Origin: an uncultured Methanobacteriaceae archaeon
GTDB lineage: Archaea > Methanobacteriota > Methanobacteria > Methanobacteriales > Methanobacteriaceae
DNA: 64,000 nucleotides
Direction: 5' to 3'
Assembly: GCA_902782945.1 (NCBI GenBank)
Contig: CACZOU010000046.1
Span: forward strand, 1-64,000
The position numbers and the translations under genes were made by a program. The notes under the pieces were generated by a model that did no database searches, was not told the DNA's origin, and saw only the letters and a program-made list of their open reading frames with translations. Positions 3,001-33,582 of this stretch are shown here, in pieces. The number at the start of each line of letters is the position of its first letter. Position 1 is the stretch's first letter.

Positions 3001-3093
3001 AAAAGTAAAATAAATAATATAACAATAGTAACAGGTGACCGTGAAGCTTATACTGATTGTAGAAGTACAACCTCAAAAATTAACATTATTTAA
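1..3093 (+). CDS. Adhesin-like Asn/Thr-rich surface protein, 5'-truncated
   Basis: The reading frame is already open at base 1, so the start and any signal peptide lie outside the window; the first ATG at 148 is internal. About 1030 residues are visible. Roughly residues 50-600 are short Asn-rich coils of the type NNTxxNNxAxxGGVIYN, repeated every 20-30 residues, as in right-handed parallel beta-helices. Residues from about 640 to the end are Ig-like beta-sandwich repeats (patterns such as VVFKINGxTI and YTIPAxL). N-x-S/T sequons are very dense. There is no C-terminal membrane segment or obvious cell-wall anchor. The family is the large Asn/Thr-rich surface proteins of gut Methanobacteriales; ligand and function are unknown. 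The gene ends in a hairpin plus T-tract. Confidence 0.85.
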   Translation, partial: NNSNNQKVLNNNKQLTSSNTKTINSNKTSKNLKKSINLTVNNYDELYDTMTNSNYTDDEMTINLSGDSIYNITKTINWNNTSTKNLIIEGNNRTFTGTNYTFLNIHTGNITLNNLTIKDITTNKVIIKNQGTLTISDSTLSDNGNIRRISAINNTGILTIINTTIINNTAISGGVLYNFGNATLINNIFINNSGVSQGGCIYNTKNGTITLIENIFQSNHAYDGGVIYTLGFTNVTNNKFLNNYGPSGAVIESKGNSIICNNLFDSNIASFDGGVIVNNGYSLVENNTIQNNRAEHIAGFLNNGGTVVLKYNTINNNTAPTGGVLANHGRMEVINNTIFNNIATNMGGLIYNYGYYSNITALIENNTIINNTAANYGGVVYNDHLATINLTNNIILNSNATLGSLVCAAGNSTVYIDNNTIVNQTASNAGSIFNTHNATVTLTNNNIYNSTAVLGGLVYTNSIHNVTLNGNNIQNTTANYGGVIYNVGVVVLNNNTIKNSVARTNSGLLYNRGNALLNGNAISNISSENAGLILNNKILVLNNNTITDNYVLNDTRFVIENYNTANITNNLFVNNTDNVKDMLLYSNNTENTYVSDNIYIDNLLNDTLIVPVNVTAHNNELKFNVTLNLREIYNDTIRNGTVTVYINDTLIDTFDVINGTSNITLDTTDFDYITHLKLVYTSLSKHYQNQIGNVTVYSIRSTIITVEPINSVVGEEITLIAHITDNNNRAITGGNLVFKINGKTLRTDGKFNSEASPLKFKVVNGSVVYTIPAELYLRGAVNVTASYSGTYRYIQNRSNVANASVALRNATVTVTVNPNQVNQDTDINYTVKVTDTSTDCKNTTIINDGYVIFKLNGITINDTDNSTLLVPVNNGTATYTYYVPRGTSAVVGNGNLTLRTYNVTATYINKAFNPSNNANTTYNVLKSKININFANVTMNNSTKTLSIKANITDYNNNLVVGTNKICVKINGNTVRDSEGNVIYYYINNGSIDLSNINITTKSKINNITIVTGDREAYTDCRSTTSKINII

Positions 3094-13322: not shown

Positions 13323-16300
13323 TTACTCTTGACGCGCTGATTTTCTTGTAAATCCGGTAAAGAAGAATACTGCAATTAAAACAATTGCTAAAATGTATCC
13401 TAGAGATATTTCAGCTTGTGAAGATGCTGCTTGTCCTCCACTTTTTGAGGATACAGCATAAACTGCAGCAGTAGCACTTGTAGCTCCACTACTTGATGCT
13501 GAACTACTTGATGCTGAACTAGCTGAGGATACGGATCCTCCGTTAGCTCCTTGACCTACATCAGAATTACCTGATTCAGTATTATTTCCACTTCCAGAGC
13601 TTGAACCGGAATTAGATGAACCTTGACTATTTCCTGAACCATTATCAGTTCCATTAGCGTTACCATTTTGGCCATTACCTGAATTAGCACCATTATTGTC
13701 TGATGATCCATTTCCAGAATTTTGTCCATTATTGTTTCCACTATTTCCTGAATCTGATCCAGTACTAGATCCACTCATTTGACTTGCTGCATTACCATTG
13801 CTTGAACCAGCATAACTTGCAGCTCCGGCGTAAGCTCCTGATCCTGAAGATACTCCAGCGTCACCATATCCTTTGAAGCTGTCTCCTCCAACATTGGTTC
13901 CACCGTTTTCACCGCCAGTATCACTACCGGTTCCACTACCTGATCCTGCACCAGTTCCAGAATCACCGGTACCTAGTACAGTTCCAGTATTTGTTGCTGA
14001 GTAGTATTGTTGTGAATATCTTTCTAAACCTTTAACACCTAATGCAGATCCTCGTTTCAGTATCCATTCATGGAGATTTACATTACCACATGTGTGGTGA
14101 CAACATGCTACTCCCCATTTATTTGCGTTATCAACGTATTTTTGAATAAGGTCTTTCATTAATTTGTTATCAGTTGTTTTCCAATAGTTGTTCATAGCTA
14201 ATGTCATACCCCAACCCATCATTGATTGAAGGGCATAGGATTTATAGTTAGCATCACCTATTAAATATTCACTGTAAACTATAACTTTCACGGTTTTTGT
14301 GAATAATTCTTGGCTAATTGCACCTGTTGAGTTTCCACTTGTTGTTCTATGGATTGCTTTTCCGTTTTTGTCTTCCTCATATCCTTGTGTTGTGAATATT
14401 GTTTTTACTAAGTTTTCATAGTTTTGTGATAATTGATTCCATCCACCAACGGAGGAAGTCATTGCTTGTAACCATTGTGGATTTGTGATTGTTGTCATTA
14501 CTTCTTTACTTACTTCTTTGGAAATTGTGCTTGAAACTATATTGTTTCTGTTACGTATATCTATCAACATAGTGTTTGGAATTGCTCCATGTACATTAGC
14601 TGCATTCAGGAGTCCTCCAAACCAGTCGGTGTAATCATCTGAATCTATGTATCTCCATGTACTATCCATATCTTGCATTATCAGGTTAACTTTGGATAAT
14701 AGATATACAAAGAGGTCTCTTTGTCCTGGAATTACTACTATTTTTCCCTCAGAATTCACTGTCCATGCATTACATAATCTTGATTCGTATACACTTGCTT
14801 GTTCGTAAGCTACACCTTCAGTTGAATTTTGCCATGATGCAATGTTGTTAAGTAAATCTGATACACCAGTACCTTCTAATTTAGCTCCATTAAGACCAAA
14901 TAATCTATATGTGGAATTAAATTGGGCATAATGTTTTTTAACATAATTGTCTTCAATACTTTCATTTAGATTATTCACTTGGTTTACTGCATTGTATAAT
15001 AAGCTTAACCAGTATGGGTTATTGGATACAATAGTAGCAAAGATATCAATTCTTGGACGTTGATATATTTTACCATCAATTGTTATAGTAAGGTTTTGAA
15101 GTGGTATTACCTCAGTACCATTTACTTTTCCACTTTGATCCCATGTTGGTTTAACTCCTAGTAAATATAGATATTGAGCTAGACTAATTCCTTCTGTACG
15201 AAGTACTTCAGTACCCCATATTACTTCCCCAACTAATTCTGGGTATGTATCTTCTCCGAGGTCCTGCATGTATTGTGTTAGTATTTGATCTACTGATTTA
15301 ACAGCAGTGGACCATGCAGCTCTACTAGGCATTTTTGTAGTATCACTAGAATACATTGATCTACCTGTAGGTAATACATCAGATAATGCTGGGTCTCCAG
15401 ATAATCCTGGTTCTACATATCCACCACTAAGAGCGTTCATAATAGATGCCCATTCTTTGTTGTCACGAACTTCATTTATGAAAGTTACTATTTGTAAGAG
15501 ATCTTTATAGAAACTACTGTTTTCGTTTTGGTTTTGTTCTCTAGCCATTAATTTAGCATTTCTAACAGTTGCATTATCAACTAATCTCATTACAATACTT
15601 TCAAGTGTTGAAGTAATAGCTGCCTGTTGTTCTGTAAAATCAACGGATTTTATTTTATCATAATAATTTCCATCAATATTATAGTAAATATTCATTATAT
15701 CTTGCAGTATACTTGTTCGTGATGATGCAATGCTAGTTATTCCTTGAACCATTTCAGTATCATTCCAGACATATCCCAATGTATGTACACCATAATTTAT
15801 AGTATCTCCACTTAAACTCTCTATAGTTTGATGTATTGTGGATAGCCAGTCTTCGAAAGCTTCATCACTAGTTGTGTAATTATACATTTTTTCTAAGTAT
15901 TCATCAAAGGTCATGTTACCTTTTAAGGTATAATTGTAGTAACCGTTCATTGATTTATTAAGACTTTGGGATAGGTTAAGTATTGCACTTTTACATATAC
16001 CCATTATTTCTTGGTCACCAATTTCCTTTACTTCATTGTATAGTGTGATGTTTTCACTCATTCTTAAGAAGTCAGGTGATTTAAAACCACCAGTGGATGT
16101 AAGGTTTAATATTAATTCTTTATAATATTCAACGTTACTTAAATCACCAGTTTTTTTGTTACTATCGTAATTTGATATAGCATCACTTAAGTCTGCATAT
16201 TCATCATATAGTTTTGAAGCTGTTGTTACTGGTGTCATATGTGTAATAACTTGTGCAAAACTTCTTTCTTTTGCAGTCATACCTTCTCCAGGGTTTGATA

Positions 16301-18887
16301 CAATATAAGGATATATGATTGGAGCTTCAGTTAATTGGAATGGCCAGTCTGATGCTTGTAATCCTAATGTACGCCCTGGTAACCATTCAAGGGTTCCGTG
16401 TGTACCCATACTTATCATTGCATCTACACTATTACCTGTTTTTCCTTTATAATATTTATATAAATATTTATAGAATGCAACATATTGTTGTGGTGGTGCT
16501 AATGCATCACTATGATAATCGGTTACGGAATCCCATCCTCTTGCTGGTTGTATACTTATAAAGATATTACCAAAGTAAATACCAGGTATAACTAGGTAAC
16601 TGTTGTTGTATATCATTGAACCATTACCTAATCCTTTTCCCCAACATGCAACTAACTGGTTTTGAAGATTTTCAGGTAATTCATTATACATTTTTTGGAA
16701 ATCACTTTTACTTATCAACTGATGATTTTTAGTTAGGTTTGCATAATGCTCTTTAACATATGTATTAAGGAGACCTTTTGCCCAGTTTCCTTTGTTACCT
16801 ATGTCAATGAGTTGTGTAGTTAATTCCTCAGTAGTTGGAATTTCACTTTTTTTCATTCCAATATTATAACCTTCATCAGCCATTTTAACTAGTAAATCAT
16901 GGACACTGGTATATACATCAAGATATGATGCACCTATGTTTGCTCTACCTGGTGGGTAGTCATATAGAATTATAGCTATTTTTTTATCATAGTTCTTTTT
17001 CTCTTTAAGTTGTGCCCATTTAAGTACTAATTGAACGTGTTTTTTCACACCTTCCTTGATAATTACCGTTGTTCCATTATCTTCAACGTATGAAATTGGC
17101 AGTGCACCAATAACTCCTTCAAACTGAGGAATTGTTACCTTATATGTCCATTCAGATTGTGGTCCATATTCACTTTTATAACTATATTTACTAATACCAC
17201 TTAAAGCATTTAGAATTGTTATGTTTGTGTGTTTATAAGTTTCTACAGTTATGTTTGTTGACATTTGTGAATATGATGTGGACCATGAATATAATGAACT
17301 GGCAGCACTAATTCCACGGGATAAACCGCTTTTATTGGTTACTGCAATGTCTAGTAATTCTGTCATGGTTGGACTTGTTGTTGCATATTGGTATAGACAA
17401 AATGCTGCTCTACCGTTTCTTTCATATTCTTTTATTAGAGCTTCTACTTCTGGTGTTGTTTGGTAGTAGCTTATAATTGCAATGAAAGGTCCTTTGTATT
17501 TAACGTGTTTATCGTACCATTGTTCAAAGTTGTGTAGTATGTCTACTGGATTTTGATGTTCTAGAATCCATGGATTGTAGTAGTTTGTCATCCAGTTTAA
17601 ACTTCCAGATCCATCATCATCATATCCAGGATCCATTTGTATCCATTGATTTATTTGTTTACTTGTTGGAATTGGTACAGACATTTTGTATCCCGGATAA
17701 TAAATACCCCATTGTGGTCCAGCTAATACTGGTGTGTTTCCATTTAGGGTTGGATTTACTTTACTTTCTCCTAGTAAGTAGAATATATAGTTTAACATGT
17801 TTTTCATATTGGTTTTAATGACAGTTTCATCTTTAATAGGTTCTGCTTGCCAGTATGAACCAATATATGTGTTTTCAATGGAGTATGGACTGTTACCTAG
17901 GAATCCCCAGCCTAACTGGTTAACTAATGAACCATATATACCAAAGGTATATGCAACCTTATTGTTTTGTGATGCTGGTGATTCTTTGATGAGGTTAGTC
18001 TCTACTCCGAATCCTTCTCCTAAAGCATACATATCTACTAGTATAAAGTTAGTATGGCTTAACATCCATTCAGCAGATACATCATATGAACTATTTAAAT
18101 TATAACCTTCAAGGAAATATACTCTATCTGATAGTTTTCTCAAGGCTTCGAATTTATTATATTGTCCATCGCTCGAGCTTCCTGAGTATGATATAATTGC
18201 TATATCTGGTATGAAAGTATAATTTAAACTTTCAGTAGTATTTATGATATGAACTTCTTCTTCACCTGCTTTATATGTTCCATATTCGAATTTTACTATG
18301 TAGTAATTTGGAGTTAATCCTGTTATTACATAATTACCAGATGAATCGGATTTCGTTTTTGTAACTATTTTACTTGTATTTTCATTGTATACAGTAATAA
18401 CTGCTCCTCCTACTCCAATAGCGTCTTTTTCCTCTCCGACGTAAGTCATTGAGGTTTTATTATATACACAGGTAACTTTTCCATTCAAACTATAAGTTTT
18501 TGCTTGTTTGATATATTTAGGTCCTGTTTTAAACGATGATTTCTCAGAGGCTACAGTTTTTATTTCTGATATTGCATGTTCCTCTTTTGATGTTATAGTT
18601 GCTGTATCTTTTTTCGTTGTTTTACTTGTTGTATCTGTTGATTTTTTCTTCGATGTTGTAGTAGTATCTATTTTCTTATTGGTTTTTGTTGTTGTTAATG
18701 ATACTTCATTAACATGTGTTTCACTTGTTAGTTCAGATATTGTTGATTCTGTATTAATTGTATTTATCTCATTCATTGTTGGTGTTGCTGCTGTACTATT
18801 AACATCTACTGGATTAGTTGCAGTTACTGTAGTACAAATTAAGAGTACGAAAAGTATCATACATAATGAAAAGATCTTATTTTTCAT
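13323..18887 (-). CDS. Exported, membrane-anchored CobN-like (cobaltochelatase large subunit family) surface protein
   Basis: About 1854 residues. A signal peptide (KNKIFSLCMILFVLLICTTV) is followed by a Thr/Ser/Lys-rich stretch to about residue 125, then a CnaB/carboxypeptidase-regulatory-like domain (VGGAVITVYN, SDSSGNYVITGLTP) and a full CobN/BchH-type chelatase region from about 230 to 1600. Visible CobN blocks: IAIILYDYPPGRANIG, ISMGTHGTLEWLPG near 830, PYIVSNPGEGMTAKERS, GEVIWGTEVLRTEGIS, RPRIDIFATIVSNNP, RLFGLNGAKLEGTGV. Then comes a 200-residue Gly/Ser/Asn linker and a C-terminal helix (GYILAIVLIAVFFFTGF) with a basic tail. Cytoplasmic CobN inserts cobalt into corrin using ATP and CobS/CobT; outside the membrane that is unlikely, so the role is open. 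AAGGAG precedes the ATG; a GTG at 18890 is also possible. Confidence 0.88.
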   Translation of the reverse strand: MKNKIFSLCMILFVLLICTTVTATNPVDVNSTAATPTMNEINTINTESTISELTSETHVNEVSLTTTKTNKKIDTTTTSKKKSTDTTSKTTKKDTATITSKEEHAISEIKTVASEKSSFKTGPKYIKQAKTYSLNGKVTCVYNKTSMTYVGEEKDAIGVGGAVITVYNENTSKIVTKTKSDSSGNYVITGLTPNYYIVKFEYGTYKAGEEEVHIINTTESLNYTFIPDIAIISYSGSSSDGQYNKFEALRKLSDRVYFLEGYNLNSSYDVSAEWMLSHTNFILVDMYALGEGFGVETNLIKESPASQNNKVAYTFGIYGSLVNQLGWGFLGNSPYSIENTYIGSYWQAEPIKDETVIKTNMKNMLNYIFYLLGESKVNPTLNGNTPVLAGPQWGIYYPGYKMSVPIPTSKQINQWIQMDPGYDDDGSGSLNWMTNYYNPWILEHQNPVDILHNFEQWYDKHVKYKGPFIAIISYYQTTPEVEALIKEYERNGRAAFCLYQYATTSPTMTELLDIAVTNKSGLSRGISAASSLYSWSTSYSQMSTNITVETYKHTNITILNALSGISKYSYKSEYGPQSEWTYKVTIPQFEGVIGALPISYVEDNGTTVIIKEGVKKHVQLVLKWAQLKEKKNYDKKIAIILYDYPPGRANIGASYLDVYTSVHDLLVKMADEGYNIGMKKSEIPTTEELTTQLIDIGNKGNWAKGLLNTYVKEHYANLTKNHQLISKSDFQKMYNELPENLQNQLVACWGKGLGNGSMIYNNSYLVIPGIYFGNIFISIQPARGWDSVTDYHSDALAPPQQYVAFYKYLYKYYKGKTGNSVDAMISMGTHGTLEWLPGRTLGLQASDWPFQLTEAPIIYPYIVSNPGEGMTAKERSFAQVITHMTPVTTASKLYDEYADLSDAISNYDSNKKTGDLSNVEYYKELILNLTSTGGFKSPDFLRMSENITLYNEVKEIGDQEIMGICKSAILNLSQSLNKSMNGYYNYTLKGNMTFDEYLEKMYNYTTSDEAFEDWLSTIHQTIESLSGDTINYGVHTLGYVWNDTEMVQGITSIASSRTSILQDIMNIYYNIDGNYYDKIKSVDFTEQQAAITSTLESIVMRLVDNATVRNAKLMAREQNQNENSSFYKDLLQIVTFINEVRDNKEWASIMNALSGGYVEPGLSGDPALSDVLPTGRSMYSSDTTKMPSRAAWSTAVKSVDQILTQYMQDLGEDTYPELVGEVIWGTEVLRTEGISLAQYLYLLGVKPTWDQSGKVNGTEVIPLQNLTITIDGKIYQRPRIDIFATIVSNNPYWLSLLYNAVNQVNNLNESIEDNYVKKHYAQFNSTYRLFGLNGAKLEGTGVSDLLNNIASWQNSTEGVAYEQASVYESRLCNAWTVNSEGKIVVIPGQRDLFVYLLSKVNLIMQDMDSTWRYIDSDDYTDWFGGLLNAANVHGAIPNTMLIDIRNRNNIVSSTISKEVSKEVMTTITNPQWLQAMTSSVGGWNQLSQNYENLVKTIFTTQGYEEDKNGKAIHRTTSGNSTGAISQELFTKTVKVIVYSEYLIGDANYKSYALQSMMGWGMTLAMNNYWKTTDNKLMKDLIQKYVDNANKWGVACCHHTCGNVNLHEWILKRGSALGVKGLERYSQQYYSATNTGTVLGTGDSGTGAGSGSGTGSDTGGENGGTNVGGDSFKGYGDAGVSSGSGAYAGAASYAGSSNGNAASQMSGSSTGSDSGNSGNNNGQNSGNGSSDNNGANSGNGQNGNANGTDNGSGNSQGSSNSGSSSGSGNNTESGNSDVGQGANGGSVSSASSASSSSASSSGATSATAAVYAVSSKSGGQAASSQAEISLGYILAIVLIAVFFFTGFTRKSARQE

Positions 18888-19122
18888 CACATATAACTCC
18901 TTTTTAGTGTATTCAACAATTTTTATTTATCTTAACTATTCAAGTATAAATGAATAAGAATACACTAATACTATTTTAGTTCAGTTTATTTAATATATTT
19001 ATGTATTATTAATAAAAATTCAAGTAAATTAGTCTTAATTTTTCTATTAAAGTTTAAATATTTTGAATTTAATTATAAAATGAGTAATTTAAAGAAAAAA
19101 AATAAAAAAGTTAAAAAACGTT

Positions 19123-21675
19123 TTAGGTTTTTATTGTTAAGACTGGTGCAGTATATTTACCGGAATTAACGTGATTATTACCAGAGTATACAACTGTTAC
19201 ATTATATAGACCATCATCCCAGAAGATATTTACATATGTACTTAGCATAGCAGTTCCATTAGTAATTGACTGAACAGTAGTTTCTGTCATTGTTTCTGGA
19301 TCAACATTACTTATAGTTCCACCATTAACTTTAAATACATATTTTCCATTAGCAACTGGCAATTTTGTTACACTTGTAGTGACATGTGCTACAAGAGTTA
19401 TGAATTCTCCAGATTTAGCAGTTAACTTTTCAATAGAAATAACTGGATCCTCTTTAAGAATAACTAATTTAGATGTAGTAGTCATACTATAATATCTATT
19501 ATTATCTCCTAGTACTATAGTGAAATTATTATCACCTGCACGTAATCCTGATGGTAAAGTAATATTTGTAAGTAGAAGACCATTAACAATATTCATATGA
19601 GCAATAGTTTTTCCATTTACTTTCACAGCTGCTTTTGTAGTACCTTTTAACTGGTTACCGTTTTGGTCAAGAATAGTTTCATTAAGTAATATATTTTGAC
19701 CAGCATATGCTGTTATTTCTTTTTGTATGAAAGAAACATTAACTTTTTGTATAGTCATATTAGTAGTATATTCTATTCTATTATATGAATCGTTACCATA
19801 TACTGCTGTTACCCTATATGTTTTACCACCAAAACCACTTAATGTGTAATTTAAAGTAGCTACACCATTAGTCATTTTAATTTTTATAGGATTACCATTA
19901 TTATCTTTTAAAGTTACACCATTAAACTTAAAGACTACTGTACCATTCAGTGGGACTGATGTTTTAGCATCAGTTGCTGTTGCTACAAGTGTTATATTAG
20001 TATTTGTTTGTGGATTTGTAGGAACGACTACATTTATTATAGCATCGTTTTTGAGTACTGGTTTAATATTGTCTGATATAGTAATATTGGTTAAATTTCC
20101 TGTAATCGTTACAGCTTCATCACCAGTAACATCATTGGATAATAATGTATTATTTAGTATAGTTACATTATTAGTTCCATTAATTGATACTGCTTTGGAA
20201 TTATTACCTACATCTATTGTGTAGACTGTGTTATTAATGATTTTTGCATTATCTGAGTTTTGTTGAATTTGGATTCCAGTATTTCCAGGTCTTACTTCTT
20301 CAACAATCTCATTAATATGTATATTACTGTTTCCAGTAGTGTTCACGTAGTTGCCTGTGATTGTAGCATTGGTAGAGTGTGCAAGTTCAATACCCATCGT
20401 ATAATTACCGACACCAGTAATATTATTATTACTTATAGTAGAATTTTGTGTTTGATAGATTTCCATACTGTATACGATTGGAGCATTTAATTTAATATTA
20501 TTATCGCTTACGTTCATATTTATTGTCGGACCTACACCACCCATGGTAGATGTGATTATACCAAATGCTAAAGCTTCATTATCTGCTGTGTAAATGGTTG
20601 TATTATAACAACGTCCTGTAACATTGTTTCCTGTGATTGTACAATTTGTAGCATAATTACCAATTTGTACTCCATCAACGTATCTGTCACCAGTCATATG
20701 TAGATTGTTATTGGTGATGTTGATGTTACTTATAGTATCTAATGCATTTATTGCATATAAAAATCTTGCTCCACTTACGGTTACTGTGTTATTATTGATG
20801 GTTATATTATCACCGTTTTTGATTTCAATACCATCTATAGTACCGTAATATGTTCCATCACATTCGTCAGCTTTTCCAACGTCAGCAATATTATTCTCTA
20901 TCAGAATATTATTACCTCCCCAATTAAATATACCGAATGTATTAGCTAAGCCTGCACGATCACCATTTACCCAATCAATATCCATTGCATGACCTCTTAC
21001 AGTCACATTATTGTTTGAAATAGTTACATTGTCAACGTTATTATATATTCCCTGTGTCACATAATCAACGTCTGAATCGCCGTTGTCATCATTGTTAGTT
21101 ATGTTTATGGTGTTATGGGTAATTTTAGCGCCAATTGCTTCATTATGAATAGCATCCTGATAACCTGTTGTAACAATTTTTAAATTCGTCACTGTTGAAT
21201 TTATTGCATCTTCAGTAAGGAATACTTGACCATTGTTAATTGTTGCATCAGAACCTGTAAGAACTAATCCTTGTTTATCAAGATAGAATGTTTTGTTGTA
21301 AAATGAACCTGTTAGTATAATAGTACTATTTGCTGTTATTGTATTTTTTGTACCTGAATCTCCACTGAAATAACGGTTATAATTTCCGTCGGTTACTGTG
21401 ATATTTTCTGCTGTTTTCAATGATTTTTTTGAATCATGTTTTATAGCAGAAGTTGTATTTATTTTCTTAGATGTAGTTGGTTGGGATTTTACTGCATAAT
21501 CAACGTTATTATTTTCAATTGTTTGTATGTCCTGTGTGCTGGTAGTAATAGTATTAGTATCTTGGGCAGTTGTTGTTACTGATTGGTCTGTACTGTTAGC
21601 TGCTGATACTGCACTTATTCCTATAAATAATAGGATTAATGTTGCTATTAGTAAAAACACTTTCTTATTATTCAT
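19123..21675 (-). CDS. Adhesin-like surface protein: beta-helix then Ig-like repeats
   Basis: 850 residues. The signal peptide (NNKKVFLLIATLILLFIGI then SAVSAA) is followed by a Thr/Gln/Asn-rich linker and the conserved beta-helix entry YNRYFSGDSGTKNT near 105. Residues 110-560 form a right-handed beta-helix with NITISNNNVT and TITGNYVNTT coils. Residues 570-850 are three Ig-like repeats (VVFKFNGVTL, AAVKVNGKTI, YVFKVNGGTI). There is no C-terminal membrane helix. The ATG follows GGGGTGA. It shares the minus strand with its neighbours; the 232-bp gap to the CobN-like gene suggests separate promoters. Confidence 0.88.
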   Translation of the reverse strand: MNNKKVFLLIATLILLFIGISAVSAANSTDQSVTTTAQDTNTITTSTQDIQTIENNNVDYAVKSQPTTSKKINTTSAIKHDSKKSLKTAENITVTDGNYNRYFSGDSGTKNTITANSTIILTGSFYNKTFYLDKQGLVLTGSDATINNGQVFLTEDAINSTVTNLKIVTTGYQDAIHNEAIGAKITHNTINITNNDDNGDSDVDYVTQGIYNNVDNVTISNNNVTVRGHAMDIDWVNGDRAGLANTFGIFNWGGNNILIENNIADVGKADECDGTYYGTIDGIEIKNGDNITINNNTVTVSGARFLYAINALDTISNINITNNNLHMTGDRYVDGVQIGNYATNCTITGNNVTGRCYNTTIYTADNEALAFGIITSTMGGVGPTINMNVSDNNIKLNAPIVYSMEIYQTQNSTISNNNITGVGNYTMGIELAHSTNATITGNYVNTTGNSNIHINEIVEEVRPGNTGIQIQQNSDNAKIINNTVYTIDVGNNSKAVSINGTNNVTILNNTLLSNDVTGDEAVTITGNLTNITISDNIKPVLKNDAIINVVVPTNPQTNTNITLVATATDAKTSVPLNGTVVFKFNGVTLKDNNGNPIKIKMTNGVATLNYTLSGFGGKTYRVTAVYGNDSYNRIEYTTNMTIQKVNVSFIQKEITAYAGQNILLNETILDQNGNQLKGTTKAAVKVNGKTIAHMNIVNGLLLTNITLPSGLRAGDNNFTIVLGDNNRYYSMTTTSKLVILKEDPVISIEKLTAKSGEFITLVAHVTTSVTKLPVANGKYVFKVNGGTISNVDPETMTETTVQSITNGTAMLSTYVNIFWDDGLYNVTVVYSGNNHVNSGKYTAPVLTIKT

Positions 21676-21984
21676 TATTCACCCCTTCTATTTTTAATTA
21701 TATAATCATACTTTAAAAATTAAACAATGTAATTTTAATTAAGTTTAATATTAATTGATTATATGGTTTATTATATAAACTTTATGAATAATATAATTTT
21801 TCATTATAAAATTAGAATTAGAGCTAATAATAAACTTTAATAGATTTTTTGGGAGTAATAATGTGAAAAATTAGTATTTTTTGAAAATTAGGAAAAAAAG
21901 GACTGGTAATTTCATAAAAAAAATTAGGGTGAAAGTGTATATTTAATTTTTTTATAGTTAACACTTCCACTCTTTTATTTTTTC
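21676..21984. other. Intergenic, AT-rich, 309 bp
   Basis: Holds the ribosome site and AT-rich promoter region of the 850-residue adhesin (TATA-like stretch near 21765-21780) and the terminator of the 1858-residue adhesin. No ORF or RNA gene was recognised. Confidence 0.6.
21916..21973 (-). terminator. Intrinsic-like terminator of the 1858-residue adhesin gene
   Basis: A 13-bp stem (21926-21938 with 21961-21973; one mismatch and one G-T) lies 12 nt past the stop codon in the minus direction, followed by T8 (A8 at 21916-21923 on the plus strand). Confidence 0.55.
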
Positions 21985-24900
21985 CTAGTATACTTCTTCA
22001 TGTCCATTCTTTGTTGGATTATTTTTTATTGTGTTATGATTTATTGTTGTTGTAGCATGTTTCATGTCGAAGATTGCTCCTCCACTGTTTGCAGTATTAC
22101 TTGTTATTTTGTTACCTGTGATTGTAGTGTTTGTTGCACGGGTGTATATTGCCCCACCATAGCTTGCATTGTTACTTGTTAGATTGTTATTGGTTATTTT
22201 CGTGTTTACTGCGTTATAGTTGTTTATTGCTCCACCATAACTTTTTGCATCGTTATTCTTGATAGTGTTTTCGGTTATAGTATTGTTGGTTCCTATGTTG
22301 TAGATTGCTCCTCCACTTGATGTTGCTTTATTGTTGTATATGTTATTGGATTGTACTGTTATATTTGTTCCTCTAAGATATATTGCACCATATTGTGCTT
22401 GGTTGTGGTGTATTCTGTTACCTGTTATTATTATATATTTTGCATTCCAGTTACTGATTGCTCCACCTAATGAAGTTGCAGTGTTATATTGCATAATGTT
22501 TGATTTTATGTTTATGTTTGTTCCTAAATTATTTATTACTGCTCCAGTTTTTGCTTTGTTTTGTGTGAAATTGTTGTTTGTTATATTGTTATTTTGACCT
22601 ATTACAAATACTGCTCCACCACTTACTATTGCAGTGTTACTTGTCATGTTGTTTTTATCGAGTTTTAATGTTGATCCTCTGTAGTATATTGATCCACCAT
22701 AGTTAGCTTTGTTACCGTTGAATTTATTATCAATTATTACTGTGTTTTTGGTATCCCAGTTATTTATTGCTCCACCAAGAGTTTTAGCTGTGTTATTTGT
22801 GAATTGGTTGTTTGTTACTTTGGTGTTTGCTCCTAGGTTGTATATTGCTCCTGAGGAAATAGTTGCATTGTTTTTAGTGAATTGGTTATTTGTTATTATG
22901 GTGTTGTTTCCTCTGTTGTATATTGCTCCTCCATATGAAGCTGTGTTGTTTTGGAATACATTGCCTGTTATTAAAGCATTGTTTGCATTATAGTTGCTTA
23001 TTGCTCCACCATTACTTCCTTTATTGTTTATGAATGTGTTTCCACTTATTGTTGTCTTTGGTGCTCTGTTTATGATAGGTGTGTTTTTAAATCCTGTGAA
23101 TGTTATATCTTCTATGGATATTAATCCATTTTGTATGTTAAAGTTGCTAATTTTCTTATTGTTTCCATCAAATACTACATTGTCGTAGCCTATTATTTTA
23201 AGATTTACGTTGGTGTTAAATGTAACAGTTTTATTTATTTTGTATACTCCGTTTAGGATGTAAAGTGTTGAATTGTTGTATTTACTATTTTTTATTGTGT
23301 CAAATGCGTATGTGTAGTTCCATGGTGTTTCTGGTGTTCTTCCATCATTTTTGCTTGTACCATTAGTTGCTACATAATATACTTGTCCGGTATAGATTAC
23401 AAGACCATTTTTGTATGTAGAGGTACTGCTATTTAGCTGGTTATTACCATAGTATTTTATTGTTATATTGTTTTTTCCTAGTAATGTGCTTGGAGCTGTA
23501 AATTTGAATCTTGCTGTTCCATTTTTGTTTACAGTTGCACTGATCACTGTTCCATTTGTATATTTTAGGTCTTTACCATTTATCATTAAAGTTACTCTAC
23601 CACTATTTCCATTGAATGTTTTTGCTTTATCTGATATTATTATGTTTAATGTTGTTGGTTCGCCAACTCTGACATGGGTTGATGTATAACTTATTGTACT
23701 TGCTGCTTTATTTACTGTGATGTTATTATGTGCTGTGGATTTTGTTAAGAGATTAGTTCCATCAAATGTTACATTTAACGGATATTTTCCTGCAACTAAT
23801 GTTGATGGTATTGTGTATTTATATGTTGCTACTCCATTGGATATTTTTGCAGTTCCAACTAGTGAATTGTTAACATATATTGTAACAGTTCCAGAAGTTA
23901 TTGCTTTTCCATTTGCAGTAAATCTAGATGTAATTGTTACCTGATTACCAATTATTCCAGTTACACTGCTTACAGTTGCTACACTTTTAGTTTGAACATA
24001 TAATTTAGCAGTACCATTAGATGCAAAGTAATCATCATTTCCACTGTATACAACGGTTATATTATATGCCTTACTTTCTGCATTTGCTGGTATTCTATAT
24101 GTGTATGATGCTTTTCCTAAAGTTACATTAGTAGTTCCTAATGTTTTTCCATCTAATATAAATGTAGCATTTCCAGTTAATTGAGCGTCATAATTATCTT
24201 TTATTTCTGCATTGATTGTAACTGTTGATCCAGGTAATCCTGGTACATTATTTACATTAACTATACTGCTTGTTTTAGTCTTGTTTAAATTTAATGAATT
24301 TGTATTAGTTGCATTTTGGAAATTTGTTCCTGATACTGATGCAATTATTGTGTATATTGTAGGTTTTAATAGATTTGTATCATTAAATCTAATAGTTGCT
24401 ACACCATTTGTTACATTTGATGAACCTATTATAGTAGTACCTATTCTAAATACAACTGTTAAATTTTTTAAATCATCAGTTGTTGAATTGATATTTGCTG
24501 TGAAAGTAACTGGATGGCCTACTGTGCCTTTTACATGTGTTACTGTGATATTTGTGAAGTATAGGAAATTATGAGATACATTGTTTGATTTATGATCATT
24601 TAATACTGCATTATCTCCAATATATTGTGATGACCTTATTGAATTTTCAGTTATTGTGTTATTAACAGTATCTGAGGTTAAGTTCACTGCATATGGACTT
24701 GCATTATTATCTATTGTGTTATTAATTACTGTGTTACTGAAACTTCTTGTCATAAACATTATTCCATTTTTACCGAAAGGAATAGCATCACTGTGTAATG
24801 CACTGGATGTATTTCCATAATCAGCACCTCTCATAGTAATATTATTACCGATAATTCTATTAAATGATGATTCATATCCAGCAACTCCGTATGGATTTGT

Positions 24901-27561
24901 TGCTTCTCCATAGAATGTATTATTGATTATTTTGTTATTGTCAGTATCAAATAATTCAATAGTGTATAATGATGCTGCACTTGCATTCATTTTGTTATTT
25001 ATGAATGTTGTGTTAAGACAATGTTCTAATGTTAATCCATAAGCATAATCTCCTCTGACTGTGGAGTTATGTAATGCATTTACGTTGAATGTATTGTTTT
25101 CTACTATTGTGTTAACACTATTTAATCCTGCTATAAATCCAGTAGCAAAGTATCCACCATTAACTACTACATTATTATTTCTAAATGTGTTATTAGTTGC
25201 ATTTAATGAACTAATTGAACTTCCCCATGGTGCTCCTAAGACTCCCATACCATATTCATATGGTCCATAACTATTTACTGTTATTTTATTGTTTGTTATA
25301 AAGTTATAATTACTATCATAATAAACATCTATACCTACAACACTGTTTTTACAAGTGTCCACCGGGAATTGGTACTTATCAAATTGTGATGTTACATTTA
25401 CATCGTTTTTGTTAATTGTGTTGTATGAGGAATATAATAAAATAATTCCATAATTATGTAATACCTCTTGAACAGCGCCGATTCTATCATCAAACATGAT
25501 TTCAGAATCATATTCTATAGGTATATTACTTTGGTTTAGTCTTACTATATTATTTGTTATATTGTTAAGATCTGATGCATATACAAATATTGCGTAGTTT
25601 ACGTAATCACCAGATGTGAATATTGTATTATGTGTTACAGTGTTACCACTTGATGAATATAAAAATATTCCAAAACTTTCCCATTTATCGTAGTTATTGA
25701 TTTTTACGTTTGTGATGTTACAGTTATTTACTTCTACTACTTCAATAGCATGTACATTGATAACTGATGAGTCATGTCTGTTGTTAATAATGGTTACGTT
25801 AGTTATTGAGGATGCGTGAGCATCTCCTGTGAATAATACTGTACCATTATAGATTGTACAATTTTGTCCTATTATATGTACTTTTATTGGGAATGTAAAG
25901 TTTTTGTTTGTGAATGTACCTTGTAGGATGAGTGTATCATTTTTTAATACTTTATTGGTATTAACAGTATATTCATCAGTAAAGTATGTGTAATAGTTGT
26001 CTTCTGTAATTATATATGTTTTATTTGAATCTGGTAAGTTTTCAGATGTACCTGATGATGGAGGTAGGTAAGCTAAGTCTAATCCTTGTCCAGAGGTACA
26101 ATTTAATACATTTGATTCTGCTACATATACATGTGCATCTTCTTCATTTCTTGCACCTGCTTCTGAGAAGTCTATGGCATATTCATCATATGATTGAATT
26201 CTGTTGTTTGTAACATTTACATAATTTATTTTTTTACTACTTGATTGTTTTTTGAATACTATACCAATCTTTCCACTAGTAATATTATTATTACTAATTG
26301 TGATATTTTTGTATGCACCTTTAGCGTATATTCCGTTTCCTAATGTAGACCATAAAGTATTATTTGTTATTATAGCTTTACCTGCCATAATTCTAATACA
26401 TGATCCACTATTTGAAGTTACGGTATTATTGTTAAGGAGTACTCCTTCACCACCAATAGTGATACCTACTGTTGTTGTGTTCACATGAACTATGTTATTA
26501 GAAACAATAGCTCCTTCACATGCATAGATACCTTCTGCTGTAGCATTTACTTCATTTCCTATGATATAGTTATTTGTGAAATCCTGAGTAGATATTCCTC
26601 TATATCCTTCTTTCACATAGTTATTACGTATTGTGTTCTCAGTACCCATTATCTGAATAGTATAACTCCAAGAGGTATCTCCACCTGTAACATAGTTTCC
26701 AGTTACATTATTATAATCACAGTAACCTCCCTGGAATAGTCCTGATCCATATACACTGAAATATATACCGTTTGCTTGGTCACTTACAACTGTGTTATTG
26801 TCAATGTTATTGTAGTAACATAATCCAAATGCTGCTGCTGTATGGGTACGATTCATATCTTCACGACAGGATGTCTGGAAGTAATTGTCATAAACACGAC
26901 TATTATTCATTTGATCTGCCGCTAATGCAAATGCAAATGGACCCCATACGTGTATATGGTTATTTGTGATTGTAATGTTCTTTGTTTTGTTAACATAGAT
27001 TCCACTACCATAGTAGTTGTTGTTAGTAATTGTTAAATTCTTGATTACTGCACCTGTTGAGTTTAAACCTTCAACGTTTACGGTACAGTTGTATAATTTA
27101 GCATTTTTGTTTGTACTGGTAAGTGTAATGTTTGATTTATCTATACTGAAATTCATGTTTGTGAATGTACCTTGTAAGTCTATTGTGTCACCTGCCTGTA
27201 CTAAGTTTGTACTTTTTGTTTTGTTTTGTGTTTTGTTGTATTTGAAGTATAAGTTGTAATTATCGCTAGTTATTGTATAAGATGATTTTTTCAACGTTTT
27301 ATTAGTTGATTTTTTCGTTATTTTATTATTACTTGTTTTTATATTCTCTTTTTTATTTACGGATGTTTTAATATTATGAGTATTACTAATAGTGTTATTA
27401 CTATTACTAGTACTTTGTATTGTATATGTGCTTTGACTTGTATCTTTTTGAATTGTATGACTTGTTCCATTATTATCTGAAACATCTGCCGCCGATACAC
27501 AGCCTAAGCCAACCATAAATAAAATCATTGTAACTAACAAGAATTTACTCATAGTTTTCAT
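21985..27561 (-). CDS. Giant adhesin-like surface protein: helix - helix - Ig-like - helix
   Basis: 1858 residues. A signal peptide (KFLLVTMILFMVGLGCVSAA) and Asn/Lys/Thr linker lead to a beta-helix opened by YNLYFKYNKTQNKT near residue 100. A second beta-helix opens with YYTYFTDEYTVNTN near 525. About residues 1010-1420 are Ig-like repeats (FILDGKTLGTTNVTLG, VTIYVNNSLVG). A third, very regular helix starts after YYVATNGTSKNDGRTPETP near 1400, with about 13 coils of the NNxAxxGGAIYN type. The third domain runs to the C-terminus with no anchor. The ATG follows GGTGA. A typical Methanobacteriales surface protein; binding partner unknown. Confidence 0.88.
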   Translation of the reverse strand: MKTMSKFLLVTMILFMVGLGCVSAADVSDNNGTSHTIQKDTSQSTYTIQSTSNSNNTISNTHNIKTSVNKKENIKTSNNKITKKSTNKTLKKSSYTITSDNYNLYFKYNKTQNKTKSTNLVQAGDTIDLQGTFTNMNFSIDKSNITLTSTNKNAKLYNCTVNVEGLNSTGAVIKNLTITNNNYYGSGIYVNKTKNITITNNHIHVWGPFAFALAADQMNNSRVYDNYFQTSCREDMNRTHTAAAFGLCYYNNIDNNTVVSDQANGIYFSVYGSGLFQGGYCDYNNVTGNYVTGGDTSWSYTIQIMGTENTIRNNYVKEGYRGISTQDFTNNYIIGNEVNATAEGIYACEGAIVSNNIVHVNTTTVGITIGGEGVLLNNNTVTSNSGSCIRIMAGKAIITNNTLWSTLGNGIYAKGAYKNITISNNNITSGKIGIVFKKQSSSKKINYVNVTNNRIQSYDEYAIDFSEAGARNEEDAHVYVAESNVLNCTSGQGLDLAYLPPSSGTSENLPDSNKTYIITEDNYYTYFTDEYTVNTNKVLKNDTLILQGTFTNKNFTFPIKVHIIGQNCTIYNGTVLFTGDAHASSITNVTIINNRHDSSVINVHAIEVVEVNNCNITNVKINNYDKWESFGIFLYSSSGNTVTHNTIFTSGDYVNYAIFVYASDLNNITNNIVRLNQSNIPIEYDSEIMFDDRIGAVQEVLHNYGIILLYSSYNTINKNDVNVTSQFDKYQFPVDTCKNSVVGIDVYYDSNYNFITNNKITVNSYGPYEYGMGVLGAPWGSSISSLNATNNTFRNNNVVVNGGYFATGFIAGLNSVNTIVENNTFNVNALHNSTVRGDYAYGLTLEHCLNTTFINNKMNASAASLYTIELFDTDNNKIINNTFYGEATNPYGVAGYESSFNRIIGNNITMRGADYGNTSSALHSDAIPFGKNGIMFMTRSFSNTVINNTIDNNASPYAVNLTSDTVNNTITENSIRSSQYIGDNAVLNDHKSNNVSHNFLYFTNITVTHVKGTVGHPVTFTANINSTTDDLKNLTVVFRIGTTIIGSSNVTNGVATIRFNDTNLLKPTIYTIIASVSGTNFQNATNTNSLNLNKTKTSSIVNVNNVPGLPGSTVTINAEIKDNYDAQLTGNATFILDGKTLGTTNVTLGKASYTYRIPANAESKAYNITVVYSGNDDYFASNGTAKLYVQTKSVATVSSVTGIIGNQVTITSRFTANGKAITSGTVTIYVNNSLVGTAKISNGVATYKYTIPSTLVAGKYPLNVTFDGTNLLTKSTAHNNITVNKAASTISYTSTHVRVGEPTTLNIIISDKAKTFNGNSGRVTLMINGKDLKYTNGTVISATVNKNGTARFKFTAPSTLLGKNNITIKYYGNNQLNSSTSTYKNGLVIYTGQVYYVATNGTSKNDGRTPETPWNYTYAFDTIKNSKYNNSTLYILNGVYKINKTVTFNTNVNLKIIGYDNVVFDGNNKKISNFNIQNGLISIEDITFTGFKNTPIINRAPKTTISGNTFINNKGSNGGAISNYNANNALITGNVFQNNTASYGGAIYNRGNNTIITNNQFTKNNATISSGAIYNLGANTKVTNNQFTNNTAKTLGGAINNWDTKNTVIIDNKFNGNKANYGGSIYYRGSTLKLDKNNMTSNTAIVSGGAVFVIGQNNNITNNNFTQNKAKTGAVINNLGTNINIKSNIMQYNTATSLGGAISNWNAKYIIITGNRIHHNQAQYGAIYLRGTNITVQSNNIYNNKATSSGGAIYNIGTNNTITENTIKNNDAKSYGGAINNYNAVNTKITNNNLTSNNASYGGAIYTRATNTTITGNKITSNTANSGGAIFDMKHATTTINHNTIKNNPTKNGHEEVY
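22070..23030 (-). repeat. Coding tandem repeat, about 75-83 bp period
   Basis: About 13 copies of ATTGCTCCACC or one-to-three-base variants recur every 75-83 bp (near 22074, 22152, 22228, 22311, 22384, 22466, 22540, 22612, 22692, 22770, 22846, 22924 and 23000). Each encodes the GGAIYN-like turn of one beta-helix coil. The conserved core could support slippage or recombination within or between adhesin genes. Confidence 0.75.
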
Positions 27562-27801
27562 TTTTTCACCGTTTTTTTATTCATAATTGTCATAAATATA
27601 AAAATTAATGATTATTTATGATAATATTATATTTCTTTTACACGAATTAATTAATTTTTCTATATAATTATTAAAATTAAATTTAATATAATCTAATAAT
27701 CAAAATTAATTAAAATAAATAATATTAATAAAAATTAGGATATGTAATTTAAAAAAAAATAGTAAATAATTCTAAAGTATAAAAGTTAATTCTCACAAAA
27801 T

Positions 27802-27831
27802 AAAAAGGTGGTGAATATAGGATTTATCCTA
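27802..27831 (-). terminator. Terminator-like hairpin after the ExbD-like gene
   Basis: A perfect 6-bp inverted repeat with a 2-nt loop (27818-27831) starts 5 nt past the stop codon, followed in the minus direction by T5 (A5 at 27802-27806). It would end the DUF2162 - ExbB - ExbD transcript. Confidence 0.4.
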
Positions 27832-27835
27832 CTTT

Positions 27836-28186
27836 TTATGAACTCACCATAACCATTTTACCAGTACTAGGATCTTGATAAACTTTTCCCATTTCCTGGT
27901 ATCCTGAACCTGATTTAGTTACATTTTCAGGCGTTTCATTTAATTGTTGTGTTTGATTATTATCTAATTCGGTAGTTTGAGCCTGCTGCTGTTGCATTGA
28001 CTGTTGTTGCTGTTGCATTGACTGCTGTTGAGACATTGCTTGGTTCATATTTTGAGCTCCTGTAGACATCACAGCAAATATTAGAAAACCCACAGCTAAC
28101 ACTAACATGATATCAGTCATGTTTACTGCTGATGACATAGGATCTAAATCTTCACCAGAGCGTAGTTTTCCTCTTCTTAATGACAT
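27836..28186 (-). CDS. DUF2149 protein, ExbD/TolR-like stator subunit
   Basis: 116 residues. One membrane helix at about 23-41 (NMTDIMLVLAVGFLIFAVM) carries Asp25 at its start, closely resembling the ExbD/TolR helix in which this Asp carries protons. A basic N-terminus (SLRRGKLRSGEDLD) should be cytoplasmic. Outside the membrane is a Gln/Met-rich stretch (about 48-75) and a short tail (MGKVYQDPSTGKMVMVSS), not the folded domain of bacterial ExbD. The start codon shares one base with the stop of the ExbB-like gene (TAATG) with GAGGTGAT just upstream, so translation is probably coupled. Confidence 0.82.
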   Translation of the reverse strand: MSLRRGKLRSGEDLDPMSSAVNMTDIMLVLAVGFLIFAVMSTGAQNMNQAMSQQQSMQQQQQSMQQQQAQTTELDNNQTQQLNETPENVTKSGSGYQEMGKVYQDPSTGKMVMVSS

Positions 28187-28830
28187 TACATCACCTCAAG
28201 AATAGCTTCTCCGATATCATATAATGCTGTTAAATCCTCTTCGTACCATCTTCTACGAATTCTTGCAATAACGAAACATAATGTACCTGCAGCTAATCCT
28301 GCAGTAGTTGTGTTAAATGCTGTTGTTAAGTTAGTTGTTAATGTCATCATATCTCCAGCACCTAGAGCTGCTAGTCCTGGACCCATAGGTATAATAGTAC
28401 CTAGTAATCCACAACCTGAACCTACTTTAGCAACTATTTCATCTTTTTCTAATGTTTTCATTATTTTGAATTCTTGGTCTTCAATAAGATTTCTTGCTAA
28501 CACTTCTCGGGTTTCTTTATTATATTGTTCTTTATCAAGAGATGCTATTTCACATAACATTTTTTTATCTTTTTTGATTAGTCTTGTTTTATTAATAGTG
28601 TCGCATATCTCTTCTTGTGTATTACACTTTGCTATGTCTTTAATTATATTACTTCTTTCTTCTGCAGTTATTTTCTTACGTCCAGTATATTCTGCAATTA
28701 TAGCTCCTAATTCTATTATTGCAAATATTATAAATATTATAAGTAAGACTAATACTGGAAGTAACAGACTTTGTGCGACAACATTCAATATTCCTGTTAG
28801 AATATCTCCTCCAGGTATAGTACTGGCCAT
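28186..28830 (-). CDS. MotA/TolQ/ExbB proton-channel family protein
   Basis: 214 residues. A first membrane helix at about 20-45 (LLLPVLVLLIIFIIFAIIELGA) is followed by a cytoplasmic helical region and then the hallmark TolQ/ExbB block VGSGCGLLGTIIPMGPGLAALG, with a last helix in FNTTTAGLAAGTLCFVIARI. These proteins form the pentameric stator around an ExbD/TolR dimer and turn proton flow into mechanical work. GGAGG lies 6 nt before the ATG. It sits between DUF2162 (28 bp away) and DUF2149 (1-nt overlap) in one operon. The driven partner is unknown; TonB-like proteins are not expected in a single-membrane archaeon. Confidence 0.88.
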   Translation of the reverse strand: MASTIPGGDILTGILNVVAQSLLLPVLVLLIIFIIFAIIELGAIIAEYTGRKKITAEERSNIIKDIAKCNTQEEICDTINKTRLIKKDKKMLCEIASLDKEQYNKETREVLARNLIEDQEFKIMKTLEKDEIVAKVGSGCGLLGTIIPMGPGLAALGAGDMMTLTTNLTTAFNTTTAGLAAGTLCFVIARIRRRWYEEDLTALYDIGEAILEVM

Positions 28831-28858
28831 GTAATTCCTCCTATTTTCTTAGTTATTA

Positions 28859-29560
28859 TTAGAATTCTATTAAATCGCTTTTTCTTTTAGTATATATAAT
28901 GCCGAGTATTACTAATCCAATCACTGCAATTAGCATATAACCTATATCAGTTAATGATTGAATTTGTACTGCTGATCCTGATGTTAATGATGAAATATTA
29001 GGTAGTATTAATAAGCATAGACAGAAGTATAAACCAATAAAAATCATGAAATTTCCTAATACAATAGGATATGGTTTATTAATTTTTTTCACAATTTTAG
29101 TTGACAATGCATAGGTTATTCCCATCACAGCTACTAATGCAACTGAGGACAATAATCCTAGAGATACTGATGATACACCAGCCATTGGAGATACTAGTAA
29201 TATTGAAGTTAATATTGCACCAAAACAACATGGACATGGCGCAACTACTGCCATACATGTACTGCTTCCAACGTCTTTACCTGTTACTTTCCAGTCATAT
29301 ACAGTTTTAAATCCAGTTATAAGAATTACTGCTGCAATTACTGCGAAGATGTAACTGGTATAATTATATACAAAATTATATAGTTCTTTGGTGTATGGTT
29401 GTACTATGTATGATAGTACTACAAGTCCTACGAAGTACCCAACTAATATTAAGTATACATTTCTTTTTTTAATACCTGAAAATCCTAGAGCTAATCCTAT
29501 TTTCAAACCAAATATTAGAACTGCTGCTAATATTCCATATTGCCAGAATTGTTCTAGCAT
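28859..29560 (-). CDS. DUF2162 polytopic membrane protein
   Basis: 233 residues with about six hydrophobic helices (IAGL-type segments near 5-25, 36-53, 68-84, 104-128, 130-150, 165-188, 205-222). A Cys cluster lies in a membrane segment: Cys102, Cys109, Cys111 and Cys112 in TCMAVVAPCPCCFG. Families with this domain are annotated only as predicted transporters. It is the first gene of the operon with the ExbB- and ExbD-like genes; GGAGG lies 8 nt before the ATG. A role in moving a metal or thiol-linked substrate is a guess from the Cys cluster. Confidence 0.8.
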   Translation of the reverse strand: MLEQFWQYGILAAVLIFGLKIGLALGFSGIKKRNVYLILVGYFVGLVVLSYIVQPYTKELYNFVYNYTSYIFAVIAAVILITGFKTVYDWKVTGKDVGSSTCMAVVAPCPCCFGAILTSILLVSPMAGVSSVSLGLLSSVALVAVMGITYALSTKIVKKINKPYPIVLGNFMIFIGLYFCLCLLILPNISSLTSGSAVQIQSLTDIGYMLIAVIGLVILGIIYTKRKSDLIEF

Positions 29561-29971
29561 TTATATTTCCCTCCTTTTTCATTGTTAATAAAAAAAGATG
29601 TAAAATATATCATAGAATATATTCATTTTATGATAGTATTTTTTTTAATTTTCATAAAGTTATATTTATTTGTTTTTTAATATTAATATTATTCTTATTA
29701 TTTTAATGAAATTAATATAAATTTTATTTATTCGTGTATTATTGAATAATCGATTCAAATATATTTTAATTTTAAAAATACGGGATATTAATTTACTATT
29801 TTCTTAGTTCTGCTTTTAATTTTTATATTTTTAAATTAATCAATATAAAATGAATATAAATATATAATTCTTAAATTATATTATGTAATATGAAGAATAA
29901 TTATCAGAACTTACTTGAGTTTCATTAAATGTTTTAATATTCTTCTATATAACTAAAAAGGAGGTTAAAGT
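29561..29971. other. Intergenic, very AT-rich, 411 bp
   Basis: Separates the divergent DUF2162 operon and the next adhesin. It is over 80% A+T with many TATA-like stretches, so no single promoter can be picked. An 8-bp inverted repeat (29892-29899 with 29938-29945) lies in the likely 5' leader just before the ribosome site. No ORF or RNA gene seen. Confidence 0.6.
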
Positions 29972-29974
29972 ATT
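29957..29974 (+). promoter_or_regulatory. Ribosome-binding site deciding a non-canonical ATT start
   Basis: AAGGAGG with its GGAGG core at 29960-29964 is followed by 7 nt and an ATT codon (29972-29974) that opens the signal-peptide frame. A TAA in the same frame at 29966-29968 excludes any start further upstream, and no ATG, GTG or TTG occurs before the hydrophobic core. Confidence 0.65.
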
Positions 29975-33415: not shown

Positions 33416-33582
33416 AATATAAAAAATAATATTATATTCTAATACTTTTTTTTATTAAGACATATATCCTAAAATACTTATTTTTCACAAAAAGAGATAA
33501 CTTATTTTAATTAAAAATAGAAATATTTTTTTTAAAAAAGAATAAAAAAAGAAAGGTTTTTTATTAACTACTTTAACAATAC

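Follow-up and report, generated by a model that had tools for sequence, protein, structure and literature searches.

An exported CobN-type protein with ExbB-type partner genes in a Methanobacteriaceae archaeon: a putative surface chelatase of metal-tetrapyrroles

The window analysed here, 64,000 nucleotides from an uncultured Methanobacteriaceae archaeon (GCA_902782945.1, contig CACZOU010000046.1, positions 1 to 64,000), encodes an exported CobN-type protein. We propose, with a probability of about one half, that it is a membrane-tethered metal-tetrapyrrole chelatase at the cell surface, most likely stripping metal as HmuS does, energised by an ExbB/DUF2149 pair and linked to uptake through DUF2162. 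HmuS of Bacteroides is a periplasmic membrane-anchored CobN-type protein and a proven haem de-chelatase (PMC12583661). Our analysis suggests that gut methanogens strip metals from surrounding haem-like or B12-like molecules, as some gut bacteria do. The protein (1855 residues) has a GTG start; position 18887, from which an earlier note read the gene, is an ATG one codon further on. Its parts are as follows.

13323..18890, minus strand: exported CobN-type chelatase, 1855 aa (ORF, Pfam, structure model, predicted membrane segments)
18816..18890, minus strand: signal peptide, residues 1-25 (hydrophobic segment 1-19; MMKNK start; TVTA near the expected cleavage)
18204..18500, minus strand: CnaB/transthyretin-like domain, residues ~131-229 (Pfam and structure model)
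17151..18209, minus strand: ChlH-like head and neck (model pLDDT 84; ChlH Z 11, two domains rotated otherwise)
14121..17150, minus strand: chelatase body, domains III-VI, residues ~581-1590 (Pfam and structure model)
16398..16400, minus strand: H831, equivalent of HmuS catalytic H538 (alignment)
16284..16286, minus strand: E869, equivalent of HmuS E577, which forms a dyad with H538 (alignment)
14634..14639, minus strand: D1418-D1419, facing side of the cavity, HmuS D1208-H1209 (alignment)
13992..14111, minus strand: C-terminal module 1594-1633, CCHHTC at 1596-1601 (alignment and structure)
13425..13973, minus strand: Ser/Gly/Asn-rich linker, 1640-1822 (composition)
13353..13409, minus strand: C-terminal membrane helix 1828-1846, basic tail after it (predicted membrane segment)

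The earlier note, made from the letters alone, had described a complete CobN-like fold, exported and tethered to the membrane, and this description has held. Pfam CobN-Mg_chel (PF02514) spans residues 359-1495 (E 4.3e-181), and the CobN blocks HGTLEWLPG and WGTEVLRTEG start at residues 831 and 1225. The Gly/Ser/Asn linker, put at about 200 residues, measures 183 (S 49, G 48, N 24). Hydrophobic segments are predicted at the N-terminus (1-19) and as a C-terminal helix (1828-1846) followed by the basic tail RKSARQE, consistent with export and tethering. The database names the protein CobN, and in one review the CobN genes found in a related methanogen are listed with B12 synthesis (PMC3087415), which would fit a standard cobaltochelatase of the cytosol whose signal was mispredicted. 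The membrane segments at either end, the linker and 29 glycosylation sequons (21 in shuffled sequences, 0-4 in cytosolic relatives) render this extremely improbable. Further, a search for the ATP motor (CobS/CobT or ChlI/ChlD; TIGR02442), which gave a match in 12-13 of 14 control genomes, found none in the 18 genomes of the window's genus, all 18 of which carry CbiX-type small chelatases.

Residues 448-1645 were modelled with AlphaFold2 (pLDDT 86, pTM 0.86); one row from a plasmid record was left out of the modelling input. By Z, the solved structure closest to this model is CobN (PDB 7C6O; Z 34.2, 963 residues, rmsd 3.1 Å). ChlH of magnesium chelatase (PDB 4ZHJ, 6YSG) follows with Z 30-31, and HmuS of B. 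thetaiotaomicron (PDB 9D26) with Z 30-31 over 1017-1020 residues (rmsd 3.8-3.9 Å). A profile search of the PDB placed HmuS on top (1283 bits; ChlH 739, CobN 728), a ranking biased towards HmuS by the HmuS rows in the profile. The model of residues 120-580 (pLDDT 84) begins with the CnaB-like domain of the earlier note, for which known CnaB/transthyretin-like domains score Z values of 10-12, with an rmsd that is mostly 1.3-2.5 Å; Pfam places CarboxypepD_reg at 159-216 (E 2.6e-6, under its cut-off). The head and neck that follow resemble those of ChlH at Z 11 with an rmsd of 15 Å, so these domains are turned differently. With its PF02514 domain, fold and GxHG histidine (H831), the protein is a member of the CobN/ChlH superfamily (class I chelatase large subunit). 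Unlike it, CobN is cytosolic, has CobS/CobT as partners and lacks both the C-terminal module and the membrane segments, and ChlH is a non-exported protein of a photosynthetic pathway with ChlI/ChlD as its ATP motor.

Active-site positions were taken from the HmuS structure and followed through an alignment of 46 chelatases. HmuS residues H538 (H831), E577 (E869), H506 (the loop histidine, H793), D1208 (D1418) and W1202 (W1412) are retained; the metal and tetrapyrrole residues, whose complete loss the earlier note had named as fatal to its idea, are therefore not all lost. Mutation H538A abolishes the activity of HmuS (PMC12583661), and equivalents of H831, E869, H793 and D1418 are present in all 11 members sampled from the protein's own clade. 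H1209, the second catalytic histidine of HmuS, aligns with D1419, an aspartate as in CobN, so that the facing histidine pair H538/H1209 is reduced to H831. HmuS E1212 is replaced by Asp, S1014 by Gly and S1067 by Val. The haem ligands M79 and H254 correspond to Y288 and S535, in a head and neck region whose alignment is less certain than that of the body, and the Met-rich insertion of domain IV is absent (the region has 87 residues and 3 Met here, whereas HmuS of the Bacteroides type has 191-234 residues and 15-23 Met). As read from this alignment, the catalytic side of the cavity is intact and the features that mark HmuS for haem are missing. Because M79, H254, H1209 and the Met-rich insertion have no counterpart, haem is not indicated as the substrate, and we do not class the protein as HmuS. 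The earlier proposal of binding, scavenging or stripping outside the cell stands in part; the HmuS precedent (PMC12583661) and the catalytic residues speak for it.

The same residues bear on whether the protein is an enzyme at all. As a binding receptor, it would capture a corrinoid or other tetrapyrrole in its fold, the ExbB pair would drive release and DUF2162 would import the intact molecule. The loss of the opposing histidine would suit a receptor, as would the similarity of the head and neck to periplasmic binding proteins (PMC12583661), and a haem-transfer role for HmuS was also considered by the authors of the P. gingivalis work (PMC13227078). Two exported relatives, L013 and L020, carry Phe and Met in place of the catalytic histidine; judged by these substitutions they are probably non-catalytic paralogues, so such versions would exist. 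We nevertheless regard a receptor as unlikely, since the equivalents of H831, E869, H793 and D1418 are kept throughout the sampled clade and DUF2162 would be small for a tetrapyrrole transporter. D1419, which matches CobN and not HmuS, and the closeness to CobN by Z would also fit a chelatase that inserts metal outside the cell, for example in metal detoxification or corrinoid remodelling. Such a forward reaction is very unlikely: the genus has no ATP motor, an extracellular supply of metal-free rings is not evident, and stripping is the activity of the closest exported homologue that has been tested (PMC12583661).

A stripping chelatase that probably works like HmuS is also consistent with what the two proteins share beyond the catalytic His/Glu, namely export, membrane segments at both ends and the six-domain CobN fold predicted here, to which the archaeal protein adds the CnaB domain and the long linker. 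They have a C-terminal module in common as well. Counterparts of CCHHTC occur in nearly all sampled exported archaeal proteins (CCHHTC, CCDCSC and similar) and in Bacteroides HmuS (CSGFVC), one Porphyromonas HmuS lacking both module cysteines; none was present in any sampled cytosolic CobN, ChlH or short archaeal CobN. In the structural alignment HmuS reaches the end of the module, whereas CobN and ChlH end before it. We guess at a disulphide, or at a site where metal is handed off. When all columns are used, a tree of 45 proteins separates the exported archaeal proteins, HmuS and the Runella protein from CobN, BchH and the short archaeal CobN (SH-aLRT 99). On the catalytic core alone HmuS shifts position; leaving out BchH with its long branches restores the split at 85, and a grouping of HmuS with short archaeal CobN is unrejected (AU p 0.33). 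Because support is 99 with all columns and 85 or lost in the core, a common ancestor for HmuS and the exported type of archaea is likely but short of proof.

New relative to the earlier note are the genes for DUF2162, an ExbB-type protein and DUF2149 (27836-29560), which lie upstream of cobN on its strand, ∼ 9 kb away, with two adhesin genes in between.

28859..29560, minus strand: DUF2162 membrane protein, predicted transporter (Pfam PF09930, E 3e-64)
28186..28830, minus strand: MotA/TolQ/ExbB-type channel protein, HmuU homologue (Pfam PF01618, 34.9 bits against a cut-off of 22.9; Bacteroidota HmuU E 1.6e-27 in a single-sequence search)
27836..28186, minus strand: DUF2149 single-helix protein, HmuV homologue (Pfam PF09919; HmuV E 3e-7 in a single-sequence search; acidic residue in the membrane helix)
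21985..27561, minus strand: adhesin-like beta-helix/Ig surface protein, between motor genes and cobN (synteny retained in relatives; membership of the system uncertain)
19123..21675, minus strand: second adhesin-like surface protein, same syntenic block (synteny; membership of the system uncertain)

The genome of the window has one match each for CobN, DUF2162 and DUF2149. Its arrangement, with the motor genes upstream of cobN and adhesin genes between, recurs in a genome of the same species and in three congeners. One congener (L070) retains the order cobN-DUF2162-exbB-DUF2149, which is tightly packed in many Methanobacteria and is the order of hmuS-T-U-V. Linkage was counted from the best-scoring matches listed for 130 genomes. 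Among these matches, all 38 DUF2162 genes closer than 3 kb to CobN are found downstream of a long CobN (1417-2123 aa) and share its strand; ChlID lies within 4.1 kb of 10 of the 11 short CobN genes and of no long one, and there is no cross-over between the long/DUF2162 and short/ChlID types. Membrane segments are present in the sampled long CobN and absent from the sampled short CobN. Since cytosolic CobN stands beside ChlID in related methanogens, the exported protein represents a type of its own, found across the class, and not a CobN relocated in one species. DUF2149 occurs in 100 of 104 CobN-bearing genomes (DUF2149 and DUF2162 both in 100), compared with 16 of the 26 that have no CobN (Fisher p 1e-5); of the four exceptions, three have a completeness of 72-85% and one is split into 490 contigs. 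An ATP-motor match is missing from 78 of the 104. The adhesin-like neighbours, with which the protein has its signal-peptide and Ig-like style in common, might suggest a surface adhesin that recycles a chelatase fold and performs no metal chemistry, which we think quite unlikely given the conserved catalytic residues and CCHHTC and the class-wide linkage to the motor.

DUF2149 proteins have, in the alignment, an acidic residue in their sole membrane helix (Asp; Glu in Runella). ExbD and TolR carry an essential Asp in the membrane helix, and on our own reading of the sequences the DUF2149 residue would sit where that Asp lies. Against the tolR profile the window copy reaches E 2e-4, far below the cut-off, and most other copies give no match. 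The locus resembles the ion-driven motors ExbB/ExbD, TolQ/TolR and MotA/MotB in that an ExbB-type channel adjoins a single-helix protein with an acidic helix residue, and differs from them in its exported chelatase partner, in the weak likeness of DUF2149 to TolR and in having neither TonB nor an outer membrane. With the hmuYRSTUV operon it shares the HmuU- and HmuV-type partners; here DUF2162 stands in place of HmuT, and neither hmuY nor the TonB receptor gene hmuR was seen among the ORFs of the window. We dropped the equation of HmuT with DUF2162, as no homology was detected by Pfam or profile comparison (probability 0.1%). On a Runella plasmid (order: TonB receptor, other membrane protein, ExbB, DUF2149, CobN) the protein in this slot differs again, with weak DsbD/NicO matches. 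Since HmuT and DUF2162 show no detectable relationship and Runella has yet another protein in this slot, what varies is the multi-helix membrane protein, around a constant core of CobN, ExbB and DUF2149. The Runella genes and TonB receptor (L061, 1-11664) directly precede the hydrogenase maturation genes hypCDE, an adjacency hinting at nickel.

Further ExbB/DUF2149 pairs, including those of genomes without CobN, mostly stand directly after other large exported proteins, several of which bear a C-terminal membrane helix. The motor is therefore not CobN-specific and may serve anchored surface proteins in general. In L131 (6127-12501) the motor cassette has a different client: an exported protein with an FmdE domain, a small exported protein, DUF2162, ExbB and DUF2149 are consecutive genes, and a CbiM-like gene of probable Co/Ni uptake function, as judged from its sequence, runs away from them. 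In L128 (2357-5803), L129 (1472-4903) and L130 (1731-6082) the pair comes after large exported proteins that belong to no known family and terminate in a membrane helix plus GYKRQKD; these may be a family of surface proteins driven by the motor.

From the computed fold, export features, catalytic residues, motor genes with their linkage and ATP-motor absence we infer an energy coupling, a direction and a role for DUF2162. The central cavity around H831 would hold a metallo-tetrapyrrole from the surroundings and the reaction would run in the stripping direction, as in HmuS. Ions would flow in through ExbB/DUF2149, their energy passing to the chelatase through the C-terminal helix and linker, so that the pair outside would be the counterpart of the CobST/ChlID motor in the cytoplasm. 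DUF2162 would import the freed metal or, less probably, the ring. No outer membrane that TonB could serve is known in these archaea, so the ExbB pair cannot power TonB import and its likely client is the chelatase; that the motor genes track exported and not cytosolic CobN, and that the ATP motor is absent, point the same way. The earlier note had argued that a protein with no access to cytosolic ATP may bind, scavenge or strip metals, which is incomplete, because the ion channel pair at the locus makes another energy source likely. HmuUV perhaps energises HmuS likewise. Purified HmuS strips haem with NADH in the absence of HmuUV (PMC12583661), which shows that the reaction can proceed in vitro without a motor. 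Also counting against our proposal are the lack of detectable homology between HmuT and DUF2162, the weak likeness of DUF2149 to ExbD/TolR, the ExbB/DUF2149 pairs beside other exported proteins, the distance between motor genes and cobN in this species, and the lower or lost support for the HmuS grouping in the catalytic core. More broadly, and more tentatively, the exported chelatases may form a class of ion-gradient-driven tetrapyrrole machines in Archaea and Bacteroidota, in which a CobN-type enzyme is coupled to ExbB and DUF2149, the latter two replacing the ATP motor.

The function of the archaeal proteins has been called unclear and complete hmu operons absent from archaea (PMC12583661, EMBO J 2025); the cob cluster (cobN-DUF2162-exbB-DUF2149) offers a concrete, testable answer on how archaea use HmuS-type proteins. 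The argument from the ExbB pair also touches a gap in the Bacteroides work, where HmuUV is drawn as powering the TonB receptor (PMC12583661) and HmuTUV are left as presumed haem transporters (PMC13227078). If our reading is correct, HmuU/HmuV would power HmuS itself, chelatases would have a new mode of energisation, and methanogens would have an extracellular route to tetrapyrrole-held metals by which those of the gut could rival Bacteroides for metals in dietary or host tetrapyrroles. In Bacteroides fragilis a double mutant of BtuS1/BtuS2 grows poorly with haem as the iron source (PMC6460266); unlike the archaeal system these proteins are bacterial and belong to a TonB system, and the authors doubted that BtuS1/BtuS2 are themselves the de-chelatase. 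A literature search, with preprints and most subscription papers outside its scope, found no paper tying archaeal CobN to ExbB, DUF2149 or DUF2162, and the main text of a proteomic study of extracellular vesicles from gut archaea leaves CobN unmentioned.

One further element lies directly before the cobN ribosome site.

18906..18966, minus strand: inverted repeat AGTGTATT...AATACACT (= AGTGTATTC...GAATACACT), sole copy in the genome

It is conserved in several congeners, its middle being variable, and species that have it carry one site per genome, at cobN; it could be either an operator or an RNA stem. With a single site per genome we rejected a regulon; a lone hit in G047 looks like coding sequence. 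An Rfam scan of the window returned a tRNA only. Palindromes of the form TTATTACT occur upstream of DUF2162 in some relatives; we rejected them as a NikR-type operator, since in several genomes a shorter version turns up just as often in the reversed control. GTATTAC-N14-GTAATAC sites are enriched over the control yet stand beside unrelated genes, and were dropped, so that neither motif assigns a metal. Five large adhesin-like beta-helix/Ig surface proteins are encoded within 36 kb of the window (148-3093 and 19123-36105). Finally, genomes G001-G009, G012, G015 and G019 have 7-11 PF02514 matches each in 1.2-1.8 Mb, a large expansion of chelatase-like proteins within the same order or class.
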